Of a DNA stretch of 47,050 bases, positions 4,322 to 39,603 are shown piece by piece. This DNA is from Candidatus Fermentithermobacillaceae bacterium. Its GTDB lineage: Bacteria > Bacillota > Sulfobacillia > Fermentithermobacillales > Fermentithermobacillaceae. Position 1 is the first letter of the stretch; each line of letters starts with the position of its first letter. The stretch is taken from assembly GCA_012837895.1 (NCBI GenBank), contig DUQH01000084.1:1-47050 (forward strand), in the 5' to 3' direction. The notes under the pieces are model-generated. The model was not told where the DNA came from and did not search any database. It saw nothing but the letters and a program-made list of their open reading frames with translations. Position numbers and translations under genes: made by a program.

Positions 4322-5359
4322 TTGAAGAAAATCATAGACTTGCGTTCTGACACTGTGACACAGCCGACTCCCGATATGCGAGAAGCTATGGCCAGGGCAG
4401 AAGTGGGTGATGACGTTTACGGCGAAGATCCTACCATAAACCAGCTTGAAGCCCTGGGTGCAGAAATGGCGGGCAAGGAGGCAGCTGTGTTTGTGCCTAC
4501 AGGCACCATGGGGAACCAGGTATCTATAATGGCATGGACTGACCGGGGCGATGAGATTATCGTGGAATCCAATGCCCATATTTTCATGTACGAAGCAGGT
4601 GGGCCTGCGGTGCTTTCAGGGGTCCAGGTTAGGACTGTTCCAGGCACGCGTGGCGCCATGGATCCCGACGATGTGAAAGCAGCCATCAGGGAAGATGACC
4701 TGCATTGTCCCCGCACATCTTTGATATGCATGGAGAATACCCACAACAGGTCGGGTGGGTGTGTACTCCCCCTTGACAACATGAAAGCTGTATATGAGCT
4801 GGCCAAAGAAGAGGGAATCGCAGTACACCTTGACGGAGCAAGGGTTTTCAACGCAGCTGCCGCGCTTGGGGTGGACGTGAAACAGATCACCCAGTATACA
4901 GACTCGGTGCAATTCTGCCTGTCCAAGGGGTTGTGCGCTCCTGTGGGTTCCCTGGTTGCAGGCCCGAAAGAGTTTATCGAAAAGGCTCGCAGGTGCAGGA
5001 AGATCCTTGGAGGCGGTATGCGTCAAGCCGGTATCTTGGCAGCAGCGGGAATAGTGGCCCTGGAAAAGATGACCAAACGCCTTGCTGAAGACCATGAGAA
5101 AGCCCGGAAACTCGCCCAGGGGCTTTCAGGCATCCCGGGACTGGACATTGATATGAGTACTGTCCAGAGCAATATGGTCTTAGTCGGGACCAAAGGCACA
5201 GGGATGGACGCATCAGGGTTTGCTAGCCTTATGAAATCTCACAGGTTGCTGTTCAACCCGTCTACACAGTATAAGGTCAGGATGGTTACCCACAACGACG
5301 TGGGTTTTGACGATATAGATGAGGCAATCAGGCGCGTAAAGGAAGCGTTAAGTGCATGA
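4322..5359 (+). CDS. ltaE: Low-specificity L-threonine aldolase
   Basis: PLP-dependent fold-type I enzyme that cleaves L-threonine or L-allo-threonine to glycine and acetaldehyde. The N-terminus [10 protein letters not shown] is the family hallmark, and the Schiff-base lysine is K202 in [11 protein letters not shown]. The length of 345 residues is normal. Translation starts at TTG 4322, placed five bases after GGAGGGG. The stop overlaps the start of rarA by four bases (ATGA), so the two are probably co-translated. Confidence 0.92.
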
Positions 5360-11560: not shown

Positions 11561-12175
11561 TTACTGTGGGTTGTAGTAACCGTGCTTCTGCATATAGTTG
11601 AAGATCTTTTCGCCATGTTTTTGCTCGTCCTGCTGGATCCTCTGGAGGTCTTGCCTTAGCTGCGGGTTAGCTGATTCAAATACAGATGTGTCGTAGGCGC
11701 CGGAAACAAACTTTTCTGTCATGAGCATATCTTGACACATCGCTGCGTCGTCAACGGCGCCTGCCTGTTGGCCCTGCCCTTGTTGTGCCTGCTGCTGGAA
11801 TTGCTGGCTCCATGCATGGGTCTGCCTGTCAAATTGGCCGGGCTCAAAGCCTGAACCTCTGGTCTGTAGGTGCTCTTGTGGTTGTTGCATTTGCTGTTGC
11901 TGGATCTGCTGTTGCTGCATTTGCTGTTGTTGGATCTGGCGTTGCTGCATTTCTTGTTGCTGCTGTGCTTGCTGTGCCCTGCCCTGGCCGCCCAGGTATC
12001 TGTTCAGGGTGTCGTAGTGATTTTGTTCCTCTTGGGCCATTTCGTTGAACAGCTTACGCAGTTCCTGGGACTTGGTGAGGTTGGCGTATCCCCTGTACTT
12101 CTTAATGCAGATTTCTTCATGAGCTAATTGGTCTTGAATTAATGACCGTTCCTTTTGAGTTAGCTGATGTGTCAT
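11561..12175 (-). CDS. CotF-family spore coat protein with glutamine-rich insert
   Basis: A 204-residue protein of the coat F family (ferritin-like helical bundle). The N-terminal half (THQLTQKERSLIQDQLAHEE, then ELRKLFNEMAQEEQNHYDTL) and the C-terminal half (QDMLMTEKFVSGAYDTSVFE, then LRQDLQRIQQDEQKHGEKIF) are the two helical pairs. Between them, residues about 66-145 are very rich in Gln, with a core of repeated QQQQMQQQQI-like units. The protein would localise to the spore coat. GAGGTGAT precedes the ATG. The insert resembles low-complexity linkers of other coat proteins and may vary in length. Confidence 0.85.
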   Translation of the reverse strand: MTHQLTQKERSLIQDQLAHEEICIKKYRGYANLTKSQELRKLFNEMAQEEQNHYDTLNRYLGGQGRAQQAQQQQEMQQRQIQQQQMQQQQIQQQQMQQPQEHLQTRGSGFEPGQFDRQTHAWSQQFQQQAQQGQGQQAGAVDDAAMCQDMLMTEKFVSGAYDTSVFESANPQLRQDLQRIQQDEQKHGEKIFNYMQKHGYYNPQ

Positions 12176-21920: not shown

Positions 21921-24725
21921 ATGACTGGAACCAGAGTAGCTGGGAGCAGACTGGTTGGGAGAAGAATGACCGGGACGAAAGCGACCGGCTCCAGAGTGAC
22001 TGGGACCAGAGTGGCTGCTGTGATTGTGACAGTGTTGTGTATATTGCTCAACATTGCAGCGCCTTTGGACGGGCACGCGTCCCAAAGGAGTATCCCGTCC
22101 AAACCTTTAGTGCTTATCGGTGAGCCGTCTAGGGATGACGGTGCAAGTCTGTGGTCCCGGGCAGGACTGGTGTCCCGGCTCGAGGATTCAGGGTACGAGC
22201 TGGGTAAGACCTTGTTTGTGTACACACCCAGGGAGCCCTACGGCGACCTGGATTCAGGAGCTTATACATTGCGCCAAATGTTGGATGAAACCATAGAGGC
22301 CACCGGATGCAGCATGTTGGATGTAGCAGCTTATGGGGTCTCGGGGCTGGTTCTAAGGTTCGGGCTGGAAATGGGGATTATCCGGGACGGGCTGGTAGAC
22401 AATGCTATCATGCTCAGCACACCCCAAAGAGGTTCGTTTCTGGCAGACTTGCTGTTACAGGCATGCACTGTTGTGAAGCATGAGTGCTTGTTTGAGCGTG
22501 AGACCAGGTATTCAAGGTTTTCGCCGTTCGGAGACGTGAGCCCTACCTTAGATCCGGGAACCATATCTTCAAGAAGCACCGGGGATTTGCCAGCTTCCAT
22601 CGGTTCAAGCTACTTCTCGTGGGAAGGCGAAGCCTGGTGGGTGGCACAAAGGGCACGGGAAATCTATGAGCCTCTTTACAGCCAGTACGTGCAGGAAAGG
22701 TTCTTGTCCCTCCCTTACGTGCCTGTGGACTCACCAAAGCAAACATTCGCAGGGTGGATAAAGCAAAACCGCCCTCATATATGGGAAAACTGCATTGCAG
22801 CGGGCATCCGGCCGCCTTTCGGCCCCTTACCTGGAGATGCCTTAGACGGCCCGCCACAGGCAGGGTATGATTTCACCGTTGCATATTATGAACTCCTCGC
22901 AATGGCAGTCGGCAGAAACCAGTACGTAGTGAGGATGGCTTCCTCAGGAAGTCTGGGGCAGGCTTTGTTCGGCCCTTCCCATGGCCCTATGCCTGGCAGC
23001 CTAAAGGACGCCATTATACAATACGGGCTCAAAGCGCTTCTGCACTACGCCAAGAAGGCACTGGTCACAGTGAAAGCGGAAGTGCAAAGGATGATTGCAG
23101 ACAGCATTGTGAGTTCTATTGGATACCTGGACAGTGCTGAGAGCCAGTTCCTTAGAAGGCTTGTGAAAGAAGAAGTGTTGGTTAACCTGGGCACTTCTGC
23201 CGGCCAGAGATTCTATAGGGTGCCCGCTAACTACTACCTGGATCAGATTAACCGGAGGTCGTCTTCATCTTCCTATACACGCAATACGCGTTTTGTGAGC
23301 ATAACCGGAAGGGTTACAAACCTGCTGGGCATCGTATGGCCGCAGGTGGCTCCCAACAATTTGTTCTGTGAAGTGGATTCCGCAGTCCCGCCCCAGGGAC
23401 CCAGGGACACAATCCGCGTGTTTAACGGGTTCCTGTCCCCGTCGTATCTAAACCTCCTGAAAGACAAACAGGTCCAGGACAGCATAGTGTCGCTATTGTT
23501 GGAGCCGGATGAGCTGGCTCAAGTTACCACCGGGCATAGCGGACAGCAGCAGATCAGAGTATCCAGCTGGCAGCCTTCGTATGTGTCTCCGCCTTGGGGT
23601 ACGGCTGGGGACCAGGTGTTCCAGGTTTCAGTAAGCATACCGTCATTGCCTGAAGGATGGGGATGTGCTGTCTGGGTTGAAGGATACGATGGAGGGCGGT
23701 GGCTGCCTGTTCCAGGCTGGAACCAGCTGCTTACCAGTGGGACAAAGACAGATGTAATACTCAAGCACACAGCCTATAGGATAGGCCTACGGCTTGTGAG
23801 AACAGGCACGGTCAACCCTTATACACCAGGGGGAAAGGTTGAGTCTGCCTTCGAACGGGAAGTTTCCGGCAAGGCACTGCTCAGCGTTGACCCTTTGTCT
23901 ACTGCTGAAGGTGCGCCCTGGGGAAACTCGCCGGGTGAAGACATGTGGGGTGGAAGCACACCCAGTGAAGGCGTGTGGGGCCCTGGTGCCGGCTACATGG
24001 GTGATGACAACGGCCCGGCGACTGTCCCGGCCGCCCCTGGTTCAGGGACTGACCCGGCTGGTACCGGTTCATGGGATGATAGTCCGGGAGAAAACGGACC
24101 TCCTGGTTCAGCTCAAAGTCCAGCAGCCGGCGACGGTATTCCTGGCGATATTCCCAGCGTCAGGGTGGTTTACAGGAATAAGCACACTACCTTGTGGAAG
24201 CCCCACGAAACATATCATGTATATTGGGAAGTTGACTTCGGGGACGGCGAAACCGTTGTGCTCCAGGGGCAGCCCCGTCTCAAAATCGCCCACACCTTCA
24301 ACCCTTCAGGCCAATACCTGGTGCGCGCAGTCTCGTACGATAATCACAATGACGTGCTGGTTGAAAAATCGTGGAATGTTGTTACCGGCGGGGAACCTGA
24401 AGTCAGGGAGTTCTGCTGTTCCAGTATTATCCCTCCGGAGGTAGAATTGGAACTAATAGGCCCGCAGAAGTGGGTTACAGGGAAACATGCGCTGTTTTCA
24501 GGGGAGGTCACATGGAAACTACCTGACGGGGCACATATTGTTAGCGTAGACTGTGATCCGGGTGAGAGATTCCACGTGCTTTGGGAACGTTCAGGGGAAT
24601 TTGCGGTATATTGGGCTGCAAGGCTCACGATAGATTATGAATTAGAGGATAGGGTAATCCGGGTAAAGAATACGTATGTTACTGAAAAGCAGGTAGATGT
24701 GTTTACACCCGGCATTACCCGGTGA
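21921..24725 (+). CDS. Secreted lipase-like protein with PKD domain
   Basis: A 934-residue exported protein. A basic repeat-built N-terminus is followed by a hydrophobic signal segment (VAAVIVTVLCILLNIAAPL). The next region resembles LCAT/PGAP1-type alpha/beta hydrolases: DVAAYGVSGLVLRFG near 134-148 and AIMLSTPQRGSFLADLLL. In relatives this motif reads AHSMGGL with a nucleophilic Ser; here the aligned residue is G139, so catalysis is doubtful unless S141 substitutes. A Gly/Pro/Ser-rich linker (about 670-735) leads to a PKD-like domain (YWEVDFGDGE, AHTFNPSGQYLVRAVSYD). I chose ATG 21921, ten bases after GAGGG; TTG 21852 is an in-frame alternative. Its function is unknown. Confidence 0.72.
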   Translation: MTGTRVAGSRLVGRRMTGTKATGSRVTGTRVAAVIVTVLCILLNIAAPLDGHASQRSIPSKPLVLIGEPSRDDGASLWSRAGLVSRLEDSGYELGKTLFVYTPREPYGDLDSGAYTLRQMLDETIEATGCSMLDVAAYGVSGLVLRFGLEMGIIRDGLVDNAIMLSTPQRGSFLADLLLQACTVVKHECLFERETRYSRFSPFGDVSPTLDPGTISSRSTGDLPASIGSSYFSWEGEAWWVAQRAREIYEPLYSQYVQERFLSLPYVPVDSPKQTFAGWIKQNRPHIWENCIAAGIRPPFGPLPGDALDGPPQAGYDFTVAYYELLAMAVGRNQYVVRMASSGSLGQALFGPSHGPMPGSLKDAIIQYGLKALLHYAKKALVTVKAEVQRMIADSIVSSIGYLDSAESQFLRRLVKEEVLVNLGTSAGQRFYRVPANYYLDQINRRSSSSSYTRNTRFVSITGRVTNLLGIVWPQVAPNNLFCEVDSAVPPQGPRDTIRVFNGFLSPSYLNLLKDKQVQDSIVSLLLEPDELAQVTTGHSGQQQIRVSSWQPSYVSPPWGTAGDQVFQVSVSIPSLPEGWGCAVWVEGYDGGRWLPVPGWNQLLTSGTKTDVILKHTAYRIGLRLVRTGTVNPYTPGGKVESAFEREVSGKALLSVDPLSTAEGAPWGNSPGEDMWGGSTPSEGVWGPGAGYMGDDNGPATVPAAPGSGTDPAGTGSWDDSPGENGPPGSAQSPAAGDGIPGDIPSVRVVYRNKHTTLWKPHETYHVYWEVDFGDGETVVLQGQPRLKIAHTFNPSGQYLVRAVSYDNHNDVLVEKSWNVVTGGEPEVREFCCSSIIPPEVELELIGPQKWVTGKHALFSGEVTWKLPDGAHIVSVDCDPGERFHVLWERSGEFAVYWAARLTIDYELEDRVIRVKNTYVTEKQVDVFTPGITR
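21924..22013 (+). repeat. Six 15-bp repeats coding pentapeptides in the signal-peptide n-region
   Basis: Codons 2-31 of the lipase-like gene form six units: TGTRV, AGSRL, VGRRM, TGTKA, TGSRV, TGTRV. The pattern is xGx(R/K)x. At DNA level the units are recognisably related (ACTGGAACCAGAGTA-like), so they arose by tandem duplication. They give the signal peptide six positive charges or more. Confidence 0.8.
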
Positions 24726-35344: not shown

Positions 35345-36373
35345 ATGCAGCAGGCCGCGTGTGGCGGCCTCAAAATGTTTTCCGGCTATCCGGGCGGGAT
35401 GGTGTTGTATTTGCATAACCAGATAATCCAGGGTTTGTGTGAGAGGAAGCGGGCCGGCCTGGCAAGGGCTGTAACCCTTGTTGAGAACGGTTCCGAACAT
35501 GCCAGGCACATCCTGGAAGAAGCATATAGACTCAGAGGACATAGCAAGGTCATCGGGATAACAGGATCGCCGGGCGTTGGCAAGTCCACTTTGGTTGACA
35601 GCTTGATCGGTGCCATACGCGAGCGCGGGGATTCAGTCGGAGTGATTGCTGTAGACCCGTCTTCCCCGTTTACCGGCGGGGCCATACTTGGAGACAGGGT
35701 GAGGGTGCGTTCGCGCACCACTGATAACGAAGTCTTCTTCCGCAGTTTGGCCTCAAGGGGATACCTGGGAGGCCTCTCCAGGCATACAGGCGACATAATA
35801 ACCCTTTTTGATGCCTTTGGCTTCGACTATGTGCTGGTTGAAACGGTAGGTACGGGGCAGTCAGAAGTGGATATCATGCGCTATGCCCATTCTGTCCTGG
35901 TTGTGATGGCTCCGGGCTTGGGCGATGATATTCAGGCGATAAAGGCAGGGATTTTGGAAATTGGCGATGTGTTCTGTGTGAACAAAGCCGATCACCCTGA
36001 TGCTGACAGAGCTGTTGCCGTGTTAGAAGCAATGCTGGGCCTCAACAGGCAGTGGCAATGGAAACCCCCTGTTGTCAAGACAGTTGCATCCCAGGGTAAA
36101 GGTGTAGTTGAACTTCTGGGAAAAATCGATGAGCACTTGGAATTCCTCAAGCAGAACGGTTTGCTGGAGGAAAGGGTATCAAGGAGCTACATTGCCGCAC
36201 TGGAAGACAACATAAGGCGAGATACGGTTGACCGTATCCTTACGGAGGCCCGGTTAGACGGTACCCTTGACTTGGTTTTGACGCAGCTGTCGCAGGGCAA
36301 GACGTACCCGGCTGCCGTGGCAAAGCAGCTTATAGGGAAGTACTTGTGCGCTGAGGAAAGTGATAATCAATAG
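35345..36373 (+). CDS. meaB: MeaB/ArgK-type GTPase, mutase chaperone
   Basis: A SIMIBI-class GTPase that guards and reactivates B12-dependent mutases. The P-loop is GSPGVGKST at 74-82; VDPSSPFTGGAILGDRVRV, ETVGTGQSEVD and CVNKAD (NKxD base recognition) follow. The C-terminal dimerisation part is present. The start is uncertain: ATG 35345 sits six bases after the mcmA2 stop with no ribosome site; ATG 35375 and ATG 35399 are in-frame alternatives. The conserved part begins near residue 28, so any of these fit. Confidence 0.93.
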   Translation: MQQAACGGLKMFSGYPGGMVLYLHNQIIQGLCERKRAGLARAVTLVENGSEHARHILEEAYRLRGHSKVIGITGSPGVGKSTLVDSLIGAIRERGDSVGVIAVDPSSPFTGGAILGDRVRVRSRTTDNEVFFRSLASRGYLGGLSRHTGDIITLFDAFGFDYVLVETVGTGQSEVDIMRYAHSVLVVMAPGLGDDIQAIKAGILEIGDVFCVNKADHPDADRAVAVLEAMLGLNRQWQWKPPVVKTVASQGKGVVELLGKIDEHLEFLKQNGLLEERVSRSYIAALEDNIRRDTVDRILTEARLDGTLDLVLTQLSQGKTYPAAVAKQLIGKYLCAEESDNQ

Positions 36374-36500
36374 CATGTACGTCAGCATATGTCAGCATAT
36401 GCCTCAGCATGTACTTTGGCATGTATGTGGGCATGTGCAGGCATCTGAGTTGGCACGTGAGTATGCATGTGAGCCGGCGTGAGCCGGCACATGTGTTGCG
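36374..36500. repeat. Irregular GCATGT-rich repeat tract
   Basis: After meaB the sequence is a run of GCATGT, GCATAT and related hexamers about every 8-14 bases, with exact short tandem copies (GTCAGCATAT twice, GTGAGCCGGC twice). Many are self-complementary (CATATG, GCATGC). It lies before the terminator at 36509. No gene is supported here. Confidence 0.55.
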
Positions 36501-36604: not shown

Positions 36605-37041
36605 TGCTCAGGAATTAACCAGATCGCTGCTCCGCCTGGTCCGGACTCGACCATTTCAACGCCGGAACTGGCTCCAAATCAGCCAGAATCGTAGCTTTCA
36701 GTCCCGAACTGGTCTGGAATTGACCAGATCATTGCCTCACGTGGTCGCATCTTAGCCACTTCAGTGTCAGACCTGGTCTCATATTAGCCGAAAGCTTAGG
36801 ATTTTGTCGGGGTCTGGTCAGGAATTGACCAGATTGCCGTGTCACCCGGTCCCATTTTGACCACTTCCGCGCCTGAGCTGGTTCCAGATTAGCCAAAACC
36901 CCAGGATCTGATCCAGAACTGGTCAGGAATTGACCAGATTGCTGCTCCGCCTGGTCCGGACTTGACCACTTCAGCACCGAACCTGGTTCCGGATTAGCCA
37001 CAGTCCTAGGTTCCAGTTTTGACCCGGTTTGGTATCGATCA
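36605..37041. repeat. 105-bp higher-order repeats carrying 12 hyphenated palindromes
   Basis: Four full copies and a decayed fifth copy of a 105-bp unit lie head to tail; GGAATTGACCAGAT-like blocks start at 36611, 36716, 36821 and 36926, exactly 105 apart. Each unit holds three 17-bp palindromes of form TGGYY-N7-RRCCA, at 36605, 36637, 36669, 36710, 36742, 36774, 36815, 36847, 36879, 36920, 36952, 36984, and a decayed one at 37025. Spacing within a unit is 32, 32 and 41 bp. A minus-strand frame stays partly open across units because 105 is a multiple of three, but stops interrupt it. The region lies between the meaB terminator and the HspR-like gene. Confidence 0.9.
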
Positions 37042-37237: not shown

Positions 37238-37609
37238 GTGGCTTACTTTCACGGTCCAGATGAACCGGTATATACCATAAGTGTTGCTGCGCGTCTTCTC
37301 GGTGAGACTCCGCAGTTCCTAAGGCAGATAGAAAACGAAGGGCTTATATCGCCCGCCCGGACCGATTCTAACATCCGCCTGTATTCCAGCAACGATCTCA
37401 GGTTGCTCGCCCGTATAATATACCTTTGGAGACAGTGCGGGATTAATCCGCAAGGTATCCGGGTGATAATCGCGATGGAGGAGGGGGATTCTGACAGCCG
37501 TACACACGTCAGCCGCAGGCCTCAGGATCCGGCAGGCGCCACCAGGCAGGGAAGGCAGAGTGCGGACAGGCGTGAGGCCACAAACGGAATGGTAAAGGAG
37601 GCCCGGTGA
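37238..37609 (+). CDS. HspR-like MerR-family regulator
   Basis: A 123-residue protein with a winged-helix MerR domain: PVYTISVAARLLGETPQFLR is the helix-turn-helix, then QIENEGLISPARTDSNIRLY, the wing, and LLARIIYLWRQCGINPQGIR. This closely fits HspR, the repressor of dnaK operons in Actinobacteria and some other phyla. The C-terminal tail is short and polar. GTG 37238 follows AAGGGGATGA. The order regulator-dnaK-grpE supports the heat-shock role. Upstream, TATAAT at 37166-37171 may be a promoter; no clear HAIR operator (CTTGAGT-N7-ACTCAAG) or CIRCE was found. Confidence 0.82.
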   Translation: MAYFHGPDEPVYTISVAARLLGETPQFLRQIENEGLISPARTDSNIRLYSSNDLRLLARIIYLWRQCGINPQGIRVIIAMEEGDSDSRTHVSRRPQDPAGATRQGRQSADRREATNGMVKEAR

Positions 37610-37674: not shown

Positions 37675-39603
37675 ATGTCCAAGATTGTAGGTATTGACCT
37701 TGGTACCACCAATTCTGTTATTGCGGTCATGGAAGGCTCTGAGCCAACAGTGATAATCAACGCAGAAGGTTCGCGGACTACGCCTTCTGTTGTGGCGTTC
37801 AGCAAGAAGAAGGAAAAACTGGTAGGCCAGCTTGCCAGGCGCCAAGCTGTACTCAACCCGGAAAACACAATATCGTCAATCAAGAGGTTTGTCGGCCGTC
37901 GCTATGATGAAGTCGAAGTTGAACGGGAGCGTGTGCCCTACAGGATAAAGCGGGGTAAGCATGGCGAAGTCAGGATATATGTGCCTTCCATAGATGAGGA
38001 ACTCACCCCTGAGGAACTGTCAGCCCATGTGTTGAGGAAAATGAAAGAAGATGCTGAAAAACACCTGGGCGAACCGGTCACCAAAGCGGTTATTACAGTC
38101 CCAGCCTACTTCAACGACTCCCAGAGGCAAGCTACAAAGGACGCAGGCCGGATAGCTGGGCTTGAGGTGCTAAGGATTATCAATGAGCCAACAGCTGCTT
38201 CCCTGGCTTATGGGGTAGACAAGAAGCAAAACGAAAAAATCCTCGTGTTCGACCTGGGCGGTGGTACCTTTGACGTATCACTGCTGGAAGTAGGCGACGG
38301 TGTGGTCGAAGTGCTGGCCACGGCCGGCGATACCCATCTTGGGGGCGATGACTACGACCAGAGAATCGTGGACTATGTGGCCGAAGAGTTCAGGAGAGAA
38401 TACGGGATTGACCTGAGGAAAGACAGGCAGGCCCTCCAGCGGCTTATAGAAGCTGCCGAAAAAGCTAAGATCGAGCTTTCACAGGTGCTTGAGACTACCA
38501 TCAGCTTGCCGTTTATCAGTGCAGACAGGGAAGGCCAGCCACTCCACCTGGAGGTCAGGCTCACCAGGGCCAAGTTTGAGGAACTCACTGACGATCTGAC
38601 CAGGAAGTGTGCCGGCCCGGTAAGAAGGGTTCTGGAAGATGCCAAACTCAAGGCAGAAGACTTGGACGAAGTGATCCTGGTCGGCGGTTCCACCAGAATG
38701 CCCAAGATTCAAGAGATGGTAAAAAGTCTTACCGGCAAGGAGCCTAACAGAAGCGTGAACCCTGACGAAGTAGTTGCCATGGGGGCTGCGATCCAGGCAG
38801 GTGTGCTTGCCGGGGACGTAAAGGATATTGTGCTCCTTGACGTGACGCCCCTGACCTTGGGTATTGAGACGCTTGGCGGGGTGATGACGCCTATCATTGA
38901 ACGGAACACGACCATTCCCGTGCGAAAGAGCCAGGTTTTCACAACTACGGCTGACTTCCAGCCGCAAGTTGAGATACACGTGCTCCAAGGTGAACGGCCC
39001 ATGGCGCGTGACAACAGGACCTTGGGAAGGTTTACTCTTTCAGGGATTCCGCCTGCCCCAAGAGGTGTGCCCCAGATCGAAGTATCTTTCGACATAGACG
39101 CCAACGGCATCCTGAATGTGTCAGCGAAAGATAAGGGCACAGGTAAAGAGCAGAAGATTACTATCAAAGCATCTACCCAGCTTCCCAGGGAAGAAGTTGA
39201 CAGGCTTGTGGAAGAAGCTGAAAAGCATGCTGAGGAAGACAGGAAGCAACGGGAGCGGATTGAGACCAGAAACCAACTGGACCAGCTGATATACACAGTT
39301 GAAAAGAGTTTGAAAGATGTCGGGGACAAGATATCATCGGACGATAAGGCCAAGGTAGAGGATGCCTTGTCCGCAGCCAGGGAAGCTCTAAACAGCGATG
39401 ACGCTGACAAAATGAAGAAAGCTTCGGATGAACTCCGGGATGCTGCTGCCAAACTGGCAGAAGAACTCTACAAGCAAGCAGCTCAGGAAGGCCAGGCTTC
39501 CGGCGAAGAAAGCGACGCTGCTTCCTCCGGTAGCGGTGACAAGAAAGACGTGTACGATGCCGAGTTCAAGGAAAAGACCAATGACAAGGAAAGCGGGACT
39601 TAA
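37675..39603 (+). CDS. dnaK: Molecular chaperone DnaK (Hsp70)
   Basis: A 642-residue Hsp70. The ATPase domain begins [15 protein letters not shown], with [37 protein letters not shown] and VGGSTRMP; the substrate domain follows from about 380 ([11 protein letters not shown]), then the helical lid and a Ser/Gly-rich tail ending in [10 protein letters not shown]. It refolds proteins together with GrpE and DnaJ. GGAGGTG lies before the ATG, and grpE starts inside its stop codon. No dnaJ follows. Confidence 0.98.

Follow-up and report, generated by a model that had tools for sequence, protein, structure and literature searches.

A dispersed, probably mobile repeat built of helically phased palindrome triplets in Fermentithermobacillaceae and other Bacillota

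Introduction

In the genome of a Candidatus Fermentithermobacillaceae bacterium, the interval between the gene of a MeaB-type GTPase and the gene of a MerR/HspR-like regulator holds a regular series of short hyphenated palindromes. This raises the question of what such a series is, and whether it belongs to the genes between which it lies. The stretch of DNA analysed here (the window) comprises 47,050 nucleotides of contig DUQH01000084.1 (assembly GCA_012837895.1). An initial annotation, made from the window alone, had described 12 palindromes in 105-bp repeats placed on one face of the helix, and had suggested either a multi-dimer protein-binding array (an operator or a partition-like site) or a chain of RNA hairpins. 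The array proves to be one copy of a scattered non-coding repeat family and not a local operator, a relationship that was missed as long as the single window was read by itself.

Results

The array occupies positions 36605-37041 of the forward strand, which carries the AATTGACCA half of the palindromes, and comprises 13 lattice positions, 12 of them clear palindromes and one decayed. The palindromes are hyphenated 17-bp sites of the form TGG-N11-CCA, the 12 clear ones spanning 36605-37000. They are arranged in four forward-strand units of 105 bp with three sites each: unit 1 at 36605-36709 (sites at 36605, TGCTCAGGAATTAACCA, and at 36637 and 36669), unit 2 at 36710-36814 (36710, 36742 and 36774), unit 3 at 36815-36919 (36815, 36847 and 36879) and unit 4 at 36920-37024 (36920, 36952 and 36984). 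The decayed thirteenth position, CGGTTTGGTATCGATCA, follows on the same strand at 37025-37041, 41 bp past the last clear site. Start spacings of 32, 32 and 41 bp repeat along the full length. Nine of the sites match TGGYY-N7-RRCCA exactly and three (36605, 36774 and 36847) do so with one mismatch, where chance would give about 0.24 matches in 437 bp and 25.5 in the 47-kb window. A chain score combining spacing and motif reached 31.0, against a maximum of 4.4 in 20 shuffled 11-kb sequences, and the 105-bp period was recovered independently by TRF, which bears out the repeat structure first described. A CRISPR array does not fit, since the repeats are degenerate and the linkers are homologous among arrays rather than unique spacers. 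TRF also reported two tandem repeats with a 15-bp period in predicted ORFs of the window (11881-11963 and 21922-22017).

The upstream neighbour is the MeaB-type GTPase gene (35345-36373, forward strand, Pfam PF03308), and downstream lies the MerR/HspR-like regulator gene (37238-37609, forward strand, Pfam PF13411), with dnaK then at 37675. Orthologues of the regulator occur in seven members of the Fermentithermobacillaceae, its nearest named relatives being DUVI01000042, JAAZEL010000046 and LFST01000046. A position immediately upstream of hspR would suit an hspR-dnaK operator to which the HspR-like protein binds, the tie that the location had first suggested. However, relatives retain meaB-hspR-dnaK with a relic of the array or with none. 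The meaB-hspR gap measures 865 bp and holds the full array in the window genome, 495 bp with five sites in the congener G010, and 281 bp in G009, where only a degenerate relic is left; gaps of 227-300 bp, all lacking the array, are found in G008, G011 and another genus. Moreover, the six other arrays of the window genome adjoin unrelated genes, so that the array is not confined to HspR targets. The operator reading was dropped and retains almost no probability. Directly 3' of meaB, at 36374-36490, there is another tract of degenerate short-period sequence (CATGTACGTCAGCATATGTCAGCATATG...GTGAGCCGGCGTGAGCCGGC) with many CATG and TATG steps, and a similar tract of about 11 bp (ATGCTATGTAGG) adjoins the array in L078, near positions 4760-4960.

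Three palindromes spaced at 32 bp, with up to one mismatch allowed, served as the search pattern in the genus, and the reversed pattern as control. The pattern matched 23 times in the window genome; three congeners gave 27, 19 and 6 matches, the fifth congener gave none at this threshold, and the other genera of the family gave 0-1, as did the reversed control. The palindrome clusters that the initial annotation had proposed to look for in this and related genomes are therefore present, with seven arrays in the window genome and about seven to nine in each of three congeners. Loci fetched from four congeneric species amounted to 32 candidates with 409 lattice sites, and all 32 keep the 32/32/41-42 rhythm with few departures. 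In the three best carriers most arrays consist of 11-21 sites over 360-710 bp. They are intergenic and neighbour meaB/hspR-dnaK, trigger factor, lactate/malate dehydrogenase, leuS, argS, metG, mreB, thiD, Sua5 and other genes. Alignments between arrays of different loci are collinear from unit to unit (L068 with L079 at 79% over 561 bp; L083 with L087 at 77% over 531 bp), so that the arrays share ancestry, their sequence having been exchanged or copied. Some array loci are shared by two or three species (tig, ldh, argS and an HTH gene). Polarity is uniform within each of the arrays L068-L087, all AATTGACCA halves of an array being on a single strand. Where the flanking genes are co-directional, the array was mostly opposed to them (about 8 of 11 loci when judged by eye), which is not significant.

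Outside the genus, 398 genomes of the phylum were searched for the exact triplet (no mismatches), and the reversed control pattern matched in none of them. Exact triplets were found in family f58 (65 in G407, 61 in G146, 10 in G276, 7 in G203 and 3 in G228) and in family f11 (11 in G024), with one isolated match in G346. The repeat thus has a patchy distribution over no fewer than three Bacillota families. Its hosts are uncultured anaerobes of several groups. A match in G420 (G420:C28:15509-15694) was set aside: it is letter-for-letter identical to G008:C61 although its bin is assigned to another family, and likely reflects cross-contamination of the metagenome bin. Four isolated single matches in IMG/VR were about the chance level and a plasmid search gave no match; a viral origin and plasmid or phage iterons or centromeres were rejected. 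In G203 (L147, f58) and in G008, G009 and G010 (L078, L082 and L118) of the window genus, arrays adjoin a like gene pair, a zinc-binding dehydrogenase-like gene and a lysine-2,3-aminomutase gene, separated in the second family by a sigma-54 activator gene; this is possibly chance and possibly horizontal exchange.

The spacing of the sites is tied to the helical repeat. Distances between exact sites, which were not fitted to any spacing, fall at 31-33, 41-42, 51-52, 63-65, 73-74, 84, 95, 105-106 and 116-117 bp, and their coherence peaks at exactly 10.5 bp both in the window genus (R 0.88, 235 sites) and in f58 and f11 together (R 0.89, 442 sites). Sites are grouped as triplets at three-turn spacing, with four or five turns between triplets. 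Among runs at three-turn spacing with a boundary at each end, triplets account for 57 of 63, 54 of 55, 7 of 7, 4 of 4 and 8 of 13 cases; G024 has longer three-turn runs and yielded no bounded runs for this count. With three-turn sites and modules joined by four- or five-turn linkers, all sites come to lie on one side of the DNA, and the phasing first noticed in the window recurs in independent lineages.

The sites themselves are constrained. In two clean orthologous pairs of arrays, at the trigger factor and FMN-reductase loci, core GG/CC bases changed at 4 of 106 positions as opposed to 60 of 464 in the linkers (p=0.006), and all arm positions together at 20 of 266 (p=0.026). Between orthologous copies, therefore, the core bases and the spacing are constrained while the linkers drift. 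In more diverged arrays at the same locus, arms differ by 10-19%, linkers differ by 37-58% and gaps are very rare; these arrays have probably exchanged units and so were left out of the constraint argument.

Constraint on the sites does not extend to pairing between their arms. The compensating arm changes reported in the initial annotation are not upheld across the 409 sites of the genus, where complementarity equals or falls below that expected of independent arms (0.528 against 0.521 for pair 4/14 and 0.425 against 0.465 for pair 5/13). C-A mismatches at pair 5/13 are not avoided (40 seen, about 34 expected), and arm covariation was absent within every genome examined. Pooled across genomes, complementary shifts of the arms are strong, with z up to 7.8, and the inner arms differ by lineage: TGGTCCCC/GGGGACCA in G407 and G146, TGGTAAG/CTTACCA in G024, TGGTAGA/TCTACCA in G276 and TGGTY/AATTGACCA in the window genome. 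The covariation anticipated for the arms is thus seen between genomes but not within them. Hairpins demand covariation within a genome, whereas a dimer demands only a common consensus for both half-sites, and the data fit the dimer. A joint shift of both arms from lineage to lineage is what would be expected of a symmetric protein dimer whose specificity varies among lineages. The inverted repeat at every site, together with a weak tendency to fold (z -1.4 and -1.8), could suggest a structured RNA transcript or a series of hairpins. However, in addition to the unpaired behaviour of the arms, there is no Rfam match and the 10.5-bp phasing has no reason at the level of RNA. This alternative is highly improbable.

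The way in which the repeat has spread is seen best in G407, from which about 20 arrays were fetched. Most of these carry a common element of about 740 bp, in both orientations and 78-90% identical, which as a set of homologous dispersed copies shows spread by copying. The borders of 12 copies are ragged, and neither terminal inverted repeats nor target-site duplications were seen; as these cannot be defined, transposition is proposed from dispersal only. A second dispersed repeat of about 200 bp is also present in G407 (L160:5207-5436, with copies in L161, L164, L171, L172, L166 and L169), up to 92-96% identical and often near palindrome arrays. One possible reading, less likely than the one favoured below, is a purely selfish miniature mobile element, in which a transposase or its partner, encoded elsewhere, would recognise the sites and resident copies would have no host function. 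The similarity of the G407 copies is in its favour, as are the patchy copy number (from none to 65 exact triplets within f58, several members of which are congeners without arrays), the presence or absence of the array at the dnaK locus, and the fact that no gene family recurs beside arrays: when neighbouring ORFs were clustered across ten genomes in search of a gene carried with the element, only spurious ORFs within arrays and a few common families recurred. However, resident orthologous copies keep their core bases and spacing under constraint, 13-20 phased sites are far above the need of known transposase ends, and the terminal features of such elements were not seen.

Under a chromosome-organising or partition-like system, the arrays would be kept for the host as parS-like, macrodomain or domain-boundary sites, which agrees with their long-range structure, the same-face phasing of constrained sites and their persistence at the orthologous tig, ldh, argS and HTH-gene loci. 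However, the fifth congener, most of the family and several f58 congeners do without arrays. Moreover, loci with a mappable neighbour were placed onto the complete chromosome of Fermentithermobacillus carboniphilus at 0.06, 0.33, 0.77, 1.17, 1.48, 1.53, 1.55, 1.79 and 1.97 Mb, all round a chromosome with its origin near 1.4 Mb (by skew) and not near origin or terminus. A system linked to origin or terminus was rejected on this scatter, and a chromosome-organising system in general appears unlikely.

Discussion

The explanation that we favour, with moderate confidence, is a dispersed, non-coding, probably mobile repeat which carries a chain of putative three-dimer binding modules. Each module consists of three 17-bp putative dimer sites (TGG-N11-CCA) spaced by three helical turns, and linkers of four or five turns join the modules so that every site faces one side of the DNA. 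The binder would be a symmetric dimer whose gene lies elsewhere in the genome; it would bind the DNA cooperatively, three dimers to each module of about 100 bp, and the element of 400-700 bp would fold into a compact, phase-locked nucleoprotein body. Binding by protein is predicted from phasing, symmetry and constraint; we infer cooperation of the dimers, and the wrapping of DNA by them is suggested by analogy. Of the readings first offered, that of a multi-dimer binding array therefore stands as a prediction, supported by phasing in independent lineages and by arms that are independent within genomes and shift jointly between them, while its partition-like form does not agree with a patchy repeat that is not confined to origin or terminus.

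No PF01037 (RAM-domain, Lrp-type) protein was found in nine genomes of the family, all four array carriers included, and an Lrp-family binder in the window genus was rejected. Genomes of f58 and f11 encode one or two PF01037 proteins, carriers and non-carriers alike. As the array is built like a chain of three-dimer operators in hosts from which PF01037 is absent, its reader would be another protein. An HTH_24 gene lies beside arrays in three species, but its family is also present in species without arrays and so gives no specific candidate.

A more speculative extension, about which we are doubtful, is that the arrays constitute a bacterial nucleosome-like packaging or boundary element, in which three-dimer modules, locked in phase and folding about 105 bp apiece, form chains that were placed chromosome-wide by copying and are read by a new family of dimeric proteins whose specificity co-evolved with the arms. 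The part of the literature that was searched contained no description of such arrays.

Dispersed palindromic repeats of bacteria are usually viewed as hairpin-forming relics. The array family follows a strict three-dimensional grammar of dimer site, triplet and 10.5-bp phase lock, which is kept in lineages that are independent and differ in recognition sequence. This points to a new multimeric DNA-binding protein, for the retrieval of which the arrays offer a ready substrate. If binding is confirmed, dispersed chromatin-like modules in bacteria would become testable, as would the spread of the arrays and their co-evolution with the reader.

The arrays share features with several known systems. 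Sites such as parS, matS and centromeric repeats are palindrome arrays to which dimers likely bind from a single side, which the present arrays resemble in their palindromes and putative one-face dimer binding, but the latter are patchy, variable in copy number and not confined to origin or terminus. Like MITE-like non-autonomous elements, they are short, non-coding and multicopy, with presence/absence polymorphism and similar dispersed copies, although they have internal 105-bp modules and neither terminal inverted repeats nor target-site duplications were seen. REP, REPIN and BIME sequences with RAYT transposases (PMC3116915) are non-coding palindromic repeats scattered over intergenic regions. 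The arrays share these traits, a probable mobilisation in trans included, but they lack hairpin covariation, have a uniform polarity in each array and sites locked to the 10.5-bp phase, and no gene recurs adjacent to them. Among described systems, the operator of Ss-LrpB, an Lrp/AsnC protein of Sulfolobus solfataricus, comes closest in architecture: three palindromic dimer sites lie on one helix face and about 100 bp are wrapped round three interacting dimers; site spacings of two or three turns have been reported for archaeal Lrp proteins (PMC2995911). The family of the window host has no such Lrp-type protein (PF01037), and its array modules are chained four to seven times and dispersed over many intergenic places, in contrast to the Ss-LrpB operator. 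In their three putative dimer sites at three-turn spacing on one helix face, as given by the triplet counts and the phasing, the arrays nevertheless resemble chains of Ss-LrpB-like modules.
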